From: Gammaproteobacteria bacterium
Lineage (GTDB): Bacteria; Pseudomonadota; Gammaproteobacteria; Ga0077536
DNA: 32,236 nucleotides
Reading direction: 5' to 3'
Assembly: GCA_947450495.1 (NCBI GenBank)
Contig: CANFVX010000005.1
Location: forward strand, 1 to 32,236
In this document: piece after piece, positions 28,003 through 32,236 of the stretch
How the letters are laid out: each line of letters starts with the position of its first letter
Numbering within the stretch: the stretch's first letter is position 1
Position numbers and translations under genes: made by a program
Notes under the pieces: generated by a model
Seen by the model: only the letters and a program-made list of their open reading frames with translations
The model's database searches: none
What the model was told of the DNA's origin: nothing

Positions 28003-28079
28003 GGCGGGCGTAGCTCAGTTGGTAGAGCACAGGTTTGTGGCACCTGGTGTCGTGGGTTCGATCCCCATCGCTCGCCCCA
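28003..28079 (+). tRNA. tRNA-His (GTG)
   Basis: G(-1)GCGGGCGTAGCTCAG...TTTGTGGCA...GGTTCGATCCCCATCGCTCGCCCCA; G-1:C73 pair present. Confidence 0.96.
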
Positions 28080-28094
28080 TCTTCTTGCCTTGAA

Positions 28095-28170
<76 letters not shown>

Positions 28171-28389: not shown

Positions 28390-29214
28390 ATGTTGCACGA
28401 AAACCTTCTGAAGTTCGCCAGCTTTCGCTACCTCAAAGTCGCTACATTGCTGGTGCTGGGTAGCATCGGGGCCTACCTCTGGCATACGCCCCGGACCATC
28501 CCTAACGGTGGCACCTGGCTGGGCTATACCTTGGGGACGATCGGCGCGGTCCTCATTCTCTGGCTGATGTTTTTCGGCCTTCGCAAACGCGCTTACCGCT
28601 CCAGGCTTGGCACTGTGAAAGGCTGGCTGTCGGCGCACGTTTATCTCGGCCTTTCGCTCATCGTGGTGGCCACGCTCCATACCGGATTCCAGTTTGGCTG
28701 GAACATCCACACGCTGGCCTACGTGCTGATGCTGGGGGTGATTTTCAGCGGGATGTGGGGCGTCTACGTCTACTTCCGAAATCCGGTGTTGATGAGCGGG
28801 ATGCTGGACGGGAAGACCGTTCAACAACTGGGTGGCTCGTTGCGCGAGATTGACGCCCAGTCACGCAAAATCGCCAGCAACCTCAACCCCGACTTGCAGA
28901 CCCTGGTGCAGCGATCGTCTGAGGCGGCGATTGTCGGCAGTCTGTTCGGTCGATTCCGTTCTCAGGTCATCGGTTGTCCCACGCGCCGAGCTGTTAGCGT
29001 TCTCGAGCAATTGGCCAAGGCGGAAGGCGCTAGCAAGCCCATACGCGATCTTCTCAACCTGCAGTTCCGGCGCCTGTCTCAACTGGATGAGATTCGCGAG
29101 TTCGTGAAACTAAAAACCTGGACCGATTTGTGGCTGCTGTTGCATGTGCCGCTGTCTTTCGCGTTGCTGGCGACCCTGACGGCGCACATCGTCTCGGTCT
29201 TTTTCTACTGGTAG
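28390..29214 (+). CDS. Integral membrane protein, putative diheme cytochrome b-like subunit
   Basis: Several hydrophobic helices; two His pairs with exact H-x13-H spacing (HVYLGLSLIVVATLH and HVPLSFALLATLTAH); next to a decaheme cytochrome c gene. Confidence 0.8.
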   Translation: MLHENLLKFASFRYLKVATLLVLGSIGAYLWHTPRTIPNGGTWLGYTLGTIGAVLILWLMFFGLRKRAYRSRLGTVKGWLSAHVYLGLSLIVVATLHTGFQFGWNIHTLAYVLMLGVIFSGMWGVYVYFRNPVLMSGMLDGKTVQQLGGSLREIDAQSRKIASNLNPDLQTLVQRSSEAAIVGSLFGRFRSQVIGCPTRRAVSVLEQLAKAEGASKPIRDLLNLQFRRLSQLDEIREFVKLKTWTDLWLLLHVPLSFALLATLTAHIVSVFFYW

Positions 29215-29220
29215 CCGCTC

Positions 29221-30810
29221 ATGCAGCATAAACAGGACGACCCGATAACTGCCCAGATCAAATCTCTGCAGCGCCCGCTGGGCGGGCGTCGACTACTGTC
29301 CTGGAGCTTGTTTGTCATTGCGGCCGTCGTCTGCTTGCTGCTCCCCGTTGCAAGTTCCAGGCATGCGGAAGAACTGAAGGGCTGGCTGCACAAGGTGCCG
29401 GGTCTCGCCGAACACGTTCAACCGCTGATGGCGAGTATGGAACAAGCATTCCTCGCGCGCCGACCCGACCCGGCGGTAAAAGCCCCCGCTGAACGCAAAT
29501 CTCACGACGACATTCATGCCCTGCTGGTCGCGGGGGCCTACACCCCACCGCCGCCGAGCTTGCTCGGTTTGGACCGGGTCTGGAATCCGGGCCCGCTGGC
29601 GCAAGCGCATCAGCCTTGGGCGAACGATTGTAAAGTTTGTCACAGCGTGCCGTTCAAACAGGTCATGGATAAAGACTGCAGAACCTGCCACGCGACGATC
29701 GGTGACCACGTAAACGCCAAGGCGGGCGAAATCCACGGTCTCAGTGACCGCAGCTGCACGAGCTGTCATCAGGACCACGAAGGGGAGTTTGGTCTTGCCA
29801 CGCAAAACCGGCATTTTGTCGGTCGTGATTGCGCAGAGTGTCATCGAGACATCAAGGGCGCGATGCCCACCACGCAAACCGAAAACGTCGCTGACTTTGC
29901 GAAGCAGCACCCCCAGTTCCGCGTGCAACTCGCTGGCACGCCACCCGAGTCGGCACTGACCCGGGTTCGTCTTGAGCCTGGCAAGCCGCTGGAGGAACCC
30001 ACCGGGCTTAAATTCCCGCACGACGTCCATCTCAGCGCGAAAGGCATCGACAGCCCCAAAGGCACGGTGCGGATGGAATGCGCGAACTGTCATGTGCTGC
30101 AGCCGGACGGTCTGCGCTTCGTCCCGACAAACATGAAGGACCATTGCCAAAGCTGCCACGCGCTGAAGCTCGAGCCCCAGATGTCTAACCGCGAAGTGCC
30201 GCACGGCTCGGTGCCTGAAGTCCTCACAGCCTTGCGCGAGTTTTATGCCTATGTGGCGCAGCAGGGCGGACTACCGGCGAGTGCCGAACCCCTCACCCAC
30301 ACCATCCAAATCACCCGGCCTGGCGAACCCGGGGCGGTGCCGCGCAGCTTCATTGATCTGCCCGGTGGCGTGCGTGAACGCGCGGCGGCGGCGGCGGCCG
30401 AGTTGTTCGAAAAAACCTCCTGCGTGGTATGTCATGAGGTAAGCCGCGAGGCTGGCGCCGGACTGGCTGGGACTCCCGGATCAGACCTGCCGCAGTGGAA
30501 GATTGCGCCGGTGCAGTCCGTCCACGTGTGGTTGCCGAAATCGGTGTTCAGCCACGCGACTCACGCCAATGAAGCGTGCACGGACTGCCATCAGGCCGAG
30601 CACTCCCAGAAGGCCACTGAGGTGCTGATGCCGCGCATTGAGGTCTGCCGTGATTGCCACGCGGGAACTGCGCCGTCCGTCAATAAAATCGTCTCGGATT
30701 GCGGGCTTTGCCACGGCTTCCATCAGCCCGCCCGCTTGCCTGTCACCGCGCAACTCACGCGTCCGTCGCTTTTGCCAACCGACAAGGCCGGCGAGGCGCC
30801 CCCGCGATGA
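29221..30810 (+). CDS. Membrane-anchored multiheme (ten CxxCH) cytochrome c
   Basis: Motifs CKVCH, CRTCH, CTSCH, CAECH, CANCH, CQSCH, CVVCH, CTDCH, CRDCH, CGLCH; N-terminal hydrophobic helix LLSWSLFVIAAVVCLLLPVA. Confidence 0.93.
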   Translation: MQHKQDDPITAQIKSLQRPLGGRRLLSWSLFVIAAVVCLLLPVASSRHAEELKGWLHKVPGLAEHVQPLMASMEQAFLARRPDPAVKAPAERKSHDDIHALLVAGAYTPPPPSLLGLDRVWNPGPLAQAHQPWANDCKVCHSVPFKQVMDKDCRTCHATIGDHVNAKAGEIHGLSDRSCTSCHQDHEGEFGLATQNRHFVGRDCAECHRDIKGAMPTTQTENVADFAKQHPQFRVQLAGTPPESALTRVRLEPGKPLEEPTGLKFPHDVHLSAKGIDSPKGTVRMECANCHVLQPDGLRFVPTNMKDHCQSCHALKLEPQMSNREVPHGSVPEVLTALREFYAYVAQQGGLPASAEPLTHTIQITRPGEPGAVPRSFIDLPGGVRERAAAAAAELFEKTSCVVCHEVSREAGAGLAGTPGSDLPQWKIAPVQSVHVWLPKSVFSHATHANEACTDCHQAEHSQKATEVLMPRIEVCRDCHAGTAPSVNKIVSDCGLCHGFHQPARLPVTAQLTRPSLLPTDKAGEAPPR

Positions 30811-32236
30811 GGGGATCGCCGCGACGCGGGCGGACGCTCTACGCGCTCGCGCTGACGCTGGTGACCGCCTGGGCGCAAGGCGCCAGCCTGTCGATTGCCG
30901 ACGTTAATCGTGTCGCGGGGCAGGCCGAACAAGCCGCAGAGTCGCTAGGCCAGACTCGCTTCACCATTGCCGTCGTCGATCGCGTTGGCAATGTGCTGGC
31001 AGTGTTTCGGCGCGGCGCCGCCAGCGCACTGACCATTACTTCAGGCCTGCCTGTCACCGGCGGTCTGGAAGGCATTAGTTCCGCTGCCACGGGTTTGGAC
31101 CTTGCGGCAGTGGCGGCGATTTCCAAGGCCGTGACCGGCGCATATCTTTCCTCATCGGGTAACGCGTTTAGTACGCGCACTGCGAGCTTCATCATCCAGA
31201 ATCACTTCGCGCCGGGCGTTAAAAACACACCGGGTGGCCCGCTCTACGGTGTGCAGTTCAGCCAGTTGCCATGCGGTGACTTTGTGCAGACCACCGATCC
31301 CGGCGCTACCACCGGCATTGGCCCACGTCGTTCGCCACTTGGTCTGGCCGGCGACCCGGGGGGCTTTCCGCTTTACAAGGCTGGCGTGGTGGTGGGTGGC
31401 GTCGGCGTCATCGCGGGCGCGACAGCGACCTATACGCTTGATTTGGATCCGCGCCATCCCAAAGCCGACCTTGAAGAGCGGATTGCGCAGGCCGCGACTA
31501 CGGGATTTGCGCCGCCGGATGCCCTGCGCCAAATCACCGCCGGCGGCATTCGCCTGCCATATTCCACTTCAGATGCTAGCGTGCCCGCCGTGACCCGAAG
31601 AGTTCCGGTGCATGCCACACCGCAGACCATTCCGGGTTACACCACTAACGTCGTCAAAGCCGGTCGAGCCTACGGCAGCCAGGGCTCCGGCTATGTGCCG
31701 GCCACGTCCGCGAACGCGACGCCTGCACTTGTCGCCCGCCGCGCCTTCATCCTCGAGGACGGCACGGGCGTCAATCGGTATAAGCCCAGAAGCAGCGTCG
31801 CGCCATCCGCCTTAAGCGCAACGTTTGTGAATGAAATTCTCCAACAGGCGCTAGGTGTGGCGAACCAGGCGCGGGCGCAGATTCGTCGACCACTCAATTC
31901 CACAGCGCAGGTGACGGTGGCCGTGGTGGATGTTGCCGGCAACATCCTCGGGGTGGCCAGAACACCTGACTCGCCGGTCTTCAGTACCGATGTCTCTGTG
32001 CAAAAAGCGCGCACCGCGGCCTTGTTTTCGCGGCGTGACGCGAGCGCCAAAATCAGGGCGATTGCCCCCGACAGCATTGCCGGAATTTCCATTCCAGGTG
32101 GCGCAATCCGCATGAGCGCGGCCCAGCGCTTCTTTGGCCGGGACGTCTTCGCCGGAACCGCCTTCACGGCGCGCGGCCTTAACAACCTCGCCCGCCCGAA
32201 TTTCCCGGACGGGATTGATGCCAACGGTCCTGGACC
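30807..32236 (+). CDS. Exported heme-binding-like protein with two GlcG/HbpS (DUF336) domains; 3' truncated by window edge
   Basis: ATGA overlap with the cytochrome stop; frame read open by hand to the window end (missing from the ORF track). Signal-like N-terminus; FTIAVVDRVGNVLAVFRRG and VTVAVVDVAGNILGVARTPDSPVFSTDVSVQKARTAA; GGFPLYKAGVVVGGVGV. Confidence 0.85.
   Translation, partial: MRGSPRRGRTLYALALTLVTAWAQGASLSIADVNRVAGQAEQAAESLGQTRFTIAVVDRVGNVLAVFRRGAASALTITSGLPVTGGLEGISSAATGLDLAAVAAISKAVTGAYLSSSGNAFSTRTASFIIQNHFAPGVKNTPGGPLYGVQFSQLPCGDFVQTTDPGATTGIGPRRSPLGLAGDPGGFPLYKAGVVVGGVGVIAGATATYTLDLDPRHPKADLEERIAQAATTGFAPPDALRQITAGGIRLPYSTSDASVPAVTRRVPVHATPQTIPGYTTNVVKAGRAYGSQGSGYVPATSANATPALVARRAFILEDGTGVNRYKPRSSVAPSALSATFVNEILQQALGVANQARAQIRRPLNSTAQVTVAVVDVAGNILGVARTPDSPVFSTDVSVQKARTAALFSRRDASAKIRAIAPDSIAGISIPGGAIRMSAAQRFFGRDVFAGTAFTARGLNNLARPNFPDGIDANGPG

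Follow-up and report, generated by a model that had tools for sequence, protein, structure and literature searches.

What do three genes that run off the end of a contig add up to? The window analysed here, a 32,236-nt stretch of DNA from a gammaproteobacterium (assembly GCA_947450495.1, contig CANFVX010000005.1), closes with the genes for an inner-membrane cytochrome b (IMP), a decaheme cytochrome c (DEC) and an exported double-DUF336 protein (HBP). A preliminary description had taken these for a three-gene module, lacking a porin, that moves electrons between the quinone pool and a periplasmic or extracellular partner. We find instead that the trio forms the 5′ end of a set of seven genes, IMP-DEC-HBP-OMP-GIANT-TET-FAD, and consider that this set probably forms a trans-envelope electron conduit of the porin-cytochrome type.

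From three genes to seven

The window makes up the entire contig C5 of a 395-contig genome, and its end falls inside HBP. Its final 60 bases recur on another contig of this genome, C294, close to the start and on the reverse strand, and C294 carries the remainder of HBP, directly followed by the gene for a putative outer-membrane protein (OMP) and by residues 1-708 of GIANT, a multiheme cytochrome. Contig C73 takes up GIANT from residue 694 and then encodes TET, another multiheme cytochrome, and FAD, a flavo-iron-sulfur protein. The C294-C73 overlap is short and imperfect, and we infer this junction from synteny: in a same-genus genome whose DEC is 91% identical, all seven genes lie contiguous in the order given above, tightly packed and with several overlaps, between a tRNA block on one side and tig-clpP-clpX-lon on the other. 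The apparent lack of a porin was an effect of the contig end, and rather than stopping at three genes, the set continues with OMP, two more multiheme cytochromes and a predicted cytosolic FAD/Fe-S protein. Locus L003 (CAMCQE010000013.1), publicly titled as a Klebsiella pneumoniae metagenome-assembled genome, belongs to the same genus as the window genome, and its title looks wrong.

For the window itself, the open reading frames bear out the preliminary description: a membrane protein, a ten-CxxCH cytochrome and an exported double-DUF336 protein follow each other on one strand, with a gap of 6 bp between IMP and DEC and the HBP start placed inside the DEC stop (ATGA overlap). DEC has matches to PF14522/PF14537/PF02085 (Cytochrome_C7/c3), and HBP matches PF03928 above the gathering score (E 2.6e-12 and 47 bits with the contig-cut sequence, 66-80 bits at full length), while the only Pfam match of IMP, to b561, is sub-threshold. 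A search for conserved synteny, which had been proposed as a check, found all three genes in unchanged order in the relative with 91% DEC identity and in relatives at 69% and 46%. Since ten hemes are also kept in 33/37 DEC homologues (all counts are from sampled genomes, with some loci cut by contig ends), the trio is not a chance assembly.

Table 1. Positions of the operon genes and of the upstream boundary marker in the window
Feature	Coordinates	Strand	Remarks
IMP, inner-membrane di-heme cytochrome b	28390..29214	+	274 aa, five transmembrane helices, two WX3HX13H, SGMWG
DEC, decaheme cytochrome c with N-terminal membrane anchor	29221..30810	+	529 aa, ten CxxCH
HBP, exported double-DUF336 protein (HbpS/GlcG-like)	30807..32236	+	PF03928; open at window edge
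tRNA-His + tRNA-Lys	28004..28170	+	just upstream of operon; boundary marker, outside the system

The inner module and its flavo-iron-sulfur partner

IMP carries its WX3HX13H motifs on transmembrane helices (TM) 3 and 5 and SGMWG on TM4. Both WX3HX13H motifs are present in 32/32 full-length homologues, and His83, His97, His252 and His266 are near-invariant among 33. An AlphaFold2 (AF2) model has five membrane helices at moderate confidence (pLDDT 61) and found no match in the PDB at E < 0.001; this model and the positive-inside charges both predict that a domain of ~110 aa between TM4 and TM5 faces the cytoplasm.

The FAD protein (820 aa) combines a Pyr_redox part of TrxB/YpdA type with two cyclic-nucleotide-binding (cNMP) domains and a ferredoxin-type C-terminus, and contains PF13247. 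It has two GxGxxG motifs and 16 near-invariant cysteines, enough to hold four [4Fe-4S] clusters; neither a signal sequence nor a TM segment was found in it, and it is predicted to be cytosolic. FAD-IMP-DEC are contiguous in about thirty loci across Gamma- and Alphaproteobacteria, where the genes overlap or nearly touch. In two species of one genus, FAD and IMP are even fused into a single protein of 1,118-1,123 aa (L083:3052-6423 and L084:8850-12206), in which the Fe-S end of FAD runs into the N-terminus of IMP on the cytoplasmic side. The fusion and the cytoplasmic TM4-TM5 loop argue for direct exchange between FAD and the b hemes, as in NADPH oxidase (NOX) and ferric reductase (FRE). With these families IMP and FAD share the di-heme b arrangement, with one HX13H pair each on TM3 and TM5, and a cytosolic FAD/NAD(P)H feed; they differ in that electrons would travel onward via multiheme cytochromes and in the flavin module, which belongs to the TrxB/YpdA type and not the FNR type and has ferredoxin domains.

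DEC has a single hydrophobic segment (TM about residues 19-50) and a heme domain predicted to be periplasmic; beside the FAD-IMP fusions, DEC contains 9 CxxCH and one CX3-4CH. Many DEC homologues bear a cytoplasmic FHA domain ahead of the membrane anchor, which exceeds the Pfam cut-off in two of those scanned and with which the homologues in L030, L028, L052 and L095 begin; the window DEC is without it. Downstream of the operon in another locus (L032:740-2620) lie a double-FHA gene and a gene for a PP2C phosphatase, a hint that electron flow may be under phospho-regulation. A metallophosphoesterase-like gene comes after DEC in several sphingomonad-like loci (L086, L088, L092, L094, also L052). 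TET, finally, is cytochrome c554-like, with 4 CxxCH and 1 CX4CH, a count that is constant among homologues.

Relation to known porin-cytochrome systems

Cytochromes b with H-x13-H pairs are also quinone-active in complex III, and a quinone-linked reading has a published precedent for proteins that resemble IMP. He et al. (2017) defined the putative porin-cytochrome clusters PCC3 and PCC4, proposed for iron-oxidising bacteria, which they modelled as quinone-linked uptake systems; the inner-membrane proteins of both are described as ~300 aa long, with five TM, SGXXG on TM4 and WX3HX13H on TM3 and TM5 (PMC5566968). The window IMP (274 aa, SGMWG, both motifs) has this signature. On that model, Fe(II) or some other donor outside the cell would supply electrons to GIANT and OMP, and IMP would pass them on to the quinone pool. 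For all the shared motif set, we regard this as unlikely here: the constant neighbour of IMP is a cytosolic FAD/Fe-S protein for which a pure quinone model has no use, the named carriers Sphingobium and Sphingopyxis are not known iron oxidisers, and the window's own genome yielded only a weak RuBisCO match. Autotrophy was discarded as a clue, this match reaching only 70 bits and probably representing a RuBisCO-like protein. It is the fusion in two species, together with an Fe-S/FAD partner as the usual companion of PCC3-like clusters (see below), that disfavours a purely quinone-linked device. The link to the quinone pool put forward in the preliminary description thus survives as a possible input to IMP and is no longer the favoured one.

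PCC4 comes closest in content. As published, it comprises a porin, cytochromes of 4, 5 and 10 hemes, an IMP and an Fe-S (PF13247) protein, is without an extracellular cytochrome, and is not described as having a DUF336 or propeller protein (PMC5566968). Our set resembles it in the five-TM IMP with its motifs, the decaheme and tetraheme cytochromes, the PF13247 protein adjoining IMP and the putative outer-membrane protein. It differs by having HBP-OMP-GIANT in place of the porin and five-heme cytochrome: DEC accounts for 10 hemes and TET for 4 CxxCH plus 1 CX4CH, a separate five-heme cytochrome is absent, and GIANT is an extra exported decaheme protein, predicted to be outer-membrane associated. 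A sister arrangement in same-family genomes (L097, L100, L101) reads five-heme cytochrome-porin-TET-TET-FAD-IMP-DEC, and we call it PCC4-like since its content matches the published description; our PCC3 and PCC4 assignments are by gene content only. The OMP profile showed no detectable relation to their porin (hhalign probability 0.1%, E 0.66), and one inner module therefore serves two outer modules of different kinds. Besides an HBP-OMP-GIANT cluster, genome G189 has a second and divergent cluster of PCC4-like content (L147:2634-11522), which consists of an outer-membrane-like protein, a tetraheme cytochrome, a cNMP/Fe-S protein without a pyridine-nucleotide domain, IMP and a decaheme cytochrome.

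As to PCC3, which is also covered by a survey of Gallionellaceae (PMC10734462), the original report found no significant homology of its IMPs to those of PCC4 (PMC5566968). Our IMP profile found the IMPs of 14/14 PCC3-like loci inspected (E 1e-16 to 1e-26), and at the sequence level it appears to bridge the two groups. In 11 of these 14 loci (L133, L134, L136-L140, L143-L146), a FAD-related protein is encoded divergently beside IMP; two such partners that were scanned have 4Fe-4S and Pyr_redox matches and an N-terminal hydrophobic segment, with a gene for an ankyrin-repeat protein next to them. Neither the Fe-S/FAD partner nor the ankyrin protein is part of the PCC3 model as far as its published account could be consulted (PMC5566968). 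The two systems have in common a homologous IMP, a periplasmic cytochrome, an outer-membrane protein and a presumed outer cytochrome; in PCC3, the partner is membrane-anchored, divergently transcribed and free of cNMP domains, and there is no DUF336 or propeller protein. We rejected PCC3 membership for the window set on heme numbers, with 10 in DEC and 10 in GIANT compared to about 21 and many-heme cytochromes (21-24 and up to 67 hemes in the PCC3-like loci).

The set follows the overall logic of MtrCAB/MtoAB/PioAB, with an inner-membrane donor, a periplasmic decaheme, an outer-membrane protein and an outer cytochrome. It departs from these systems in that OMP matches no solved structure by sequence and that the partner is a cytosolic FAD/Fe-S protein and not a quinol oxidase of CymA type. 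Against the MtrA/DmsE family (TIGR03508), whose cut-off is 192.2 bits, DEC scores 31.6; we rejected Mtr membership, in agreement with the preliminary description that this is no classical Mtr conduit. Literature searches on LVIVD, DUF336, cyclic-nucleotide domains or Sphingomonadaceae together with multiheme cytochromes returned no description of the cluster, most subscription papers and supplementary tables lying outside the search. Judged by sequence, the inner half is PCC4-like and fits what was published for PCC3 and PCC4 (PMC5566968), and the claim of an undescribed system holds for HBP-OMP-GIANT within the literature searched.

The outer module and the proposed electron path

HBP begins with a lipoprotein signal followed by Gly/Ser in most relatives and with a plain signal peptide instead in the window genus. 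OMP is exported and cysteine-free and ends in F or Y in 18/18 sequences; some homologues have an N-terminal SH3 domain, and 2/18 show a weak Alginate_exp match. GIANT (1,258 aa) combines ten CxxCH, a fixed count among homologues, with a C-terminal LVIVD propeller. Mean pairwise identity is highest for GIANT (64%), followed by OMP (54), HBP (53), FAD (45), IMP (42), TET (40) and DEC (35); the strongest sequence constraint is thus on the outer module, GIANT above all, a pattern that points to a specific partner more than to a bare wire.

Such conservation, unusual for a wire, would also suit a periplasmic or outer-membrane reductase of a soluble substrate (an oxyanion or similar), with OMP as channel, GIANT as multiheme enzyme and the inner module as feed. 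One local domain of GIANT matches ExtM, which is encoded in the selenite/tellurite operon of Geobacter (E 1.5e-17), and the ext cluster likewise pairs a porin with multiheme cytochromes, of 4, 5, 10 and 12 hemes (PMC5877670). We nevertheless hold this explanation to be distinctly unlikely, given that the best ExtM stretch covers about 50 residues and the score of 63 bits lies far under the family cut-off of 800, on which ExtM membership (NF040943) was rejected. In comparison with extHIJKLMNOPQS, our set is alike in its porin-like protein, several multiheme cytochromes and a cytochrome b (PMC5877670); ext is without DUF336 or propeller proteins and has another cytochrome b and other Fe-S subunits.

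HBP-OMP-GIANT are contiguous in about twenty loci of Gammaproteobacteria (in the GTDB sense, including Burkholderiales) and Alphaproteobacteria, so that a restriction to one lineage was dismissed; carriers include the Sphingobium herbicidovorans plasmid pMSHV and the Sphingopyxis indica plasmid pMC4. GIANT was present in 12/274 sampled genomes of the class and FAD in 15/399 of the phylum. HBP occurs in 9/10 GIANT-bearing genomes checked and in 0/10 genomes that have the inner block and in which no GIANT was seen; G552, which has HBP, was left outside this comparison for its GIANT status. In Sphingobium and Sphingopyxis, the system or its outer half is carried by large plasmids classed as conjugative (L052:10748-27037, L053:8444-18143) and may move from strain to strain in this way.

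Could the two halves be separate neighbours, with FAD-IMP-DEC as a general electron exporter of the inner membrane and HBP-OMP-GIANT as a surface module unrelated to it? They lie apart in Sphingopyxis indica and several sphingomonad-like genomes, and same-family genomes have the inner half without the outer. In Gammaproteobacteria of many families, however, they form one contiguous, overlapping operon, and even the split halves of Sphingobium are only about 2 kb from each other, which leaves this option quite improbable.

From the gene content, synteny, cofactor motifs and FAD-IMP fusion, we infer the following for the conduit. FAD, with NAD(P)H, flavin and four [4Fe-4S] clusters, would exchange electrons with the two b hemes of IMP, which would carry them over the inner membrane to anchored DEC; from DEC they would go by way of periplasmic TET to the outer membrane, where OMP and GIANT would take over and HBP is a predicted accessory, perhaps of the heme or redox kind put forward in the preliminary description. 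GIANT, as the most conserved subunit, would be the likely contact site for an extracellular substrate, and the cNMP and FHA domains could allow regulation from inside. Electrons leaving the cytosol run down the membrane potential, and import to NADP+ is doubly uphill. Because the potential favours outward flow and the b-heme relay resembles that of ferric reductase and NOX, export from NAD(P)H seems more likely than import. Overall, the preliminary description is supported in its idea of an electron-transfer set that leads over the inner membrane to a partner in the periplasm or outside the cell.

Several observations speak against this proposal. The AF2 prediction for OMP, made with three sequences, reached a pLDDT of only 27, and we make no fold claim from it; no database family or solved structure confirmed a barrel, a PDB sequence search with the OMP profile returning nothing. 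Its strand alternation is weak and suggestive at most (alignment-averaged z 1.5), and by single-sequence alternation OMP was not separable from soluble proteins; we treat it as a putative barrel. GIANT is without a lipobox in 21/22 sequences, which makes its surface exposure a guess; it could also reside in the periplasm or within the barrel. In one genome, G023, OMP-GIANT occur without HBP, in many Sphingomonadaceae-like genomes the two halves lie apart, and Sphingopyxis indica shows no inner half close to the outer one. NAD(P)H is not a universal donor either, as the partner in G189 is without the pyridine-nucleotide domain.

Porin-cytochrome conduits are a bacterial route of electron exchange with minerals and electrodes, and to our knowledge nearly all models of them start or end at quinone. 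The conduit formed by the seven-gene set would include its own cytosolic NAD(P)H/flavin/Fe-S partner as well as domains for regulation. More generally, we tentatively suggest, as a minority possibility, that the IMP-family cytochromes b found here, in PCC4 and in PCC3 are NOX-like membrane stages and not quinol oxidases, regulated by cyclic nucleotides and phospho-signals, bypassing the quinone pool and swappable among outer modules. With an Fe-S/FAD partner beside most PCC3-like clusters inspected, our understanding of both PCC3 and PCC4 could change, and the occurrence of the system in the culturable Sphingobium herbicidovorans (strain MH, genes B6S01_RS18410-18455) makes the electron entry point directly testable. 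If the NOX-like interpretation is true, cytosolic NAD(P)H would be linked directly to outer-membrane cytochromes, and HBP-OMP-GIANT would be a new outer module of sphingomonads and uncultured Gammaproteobacteria.

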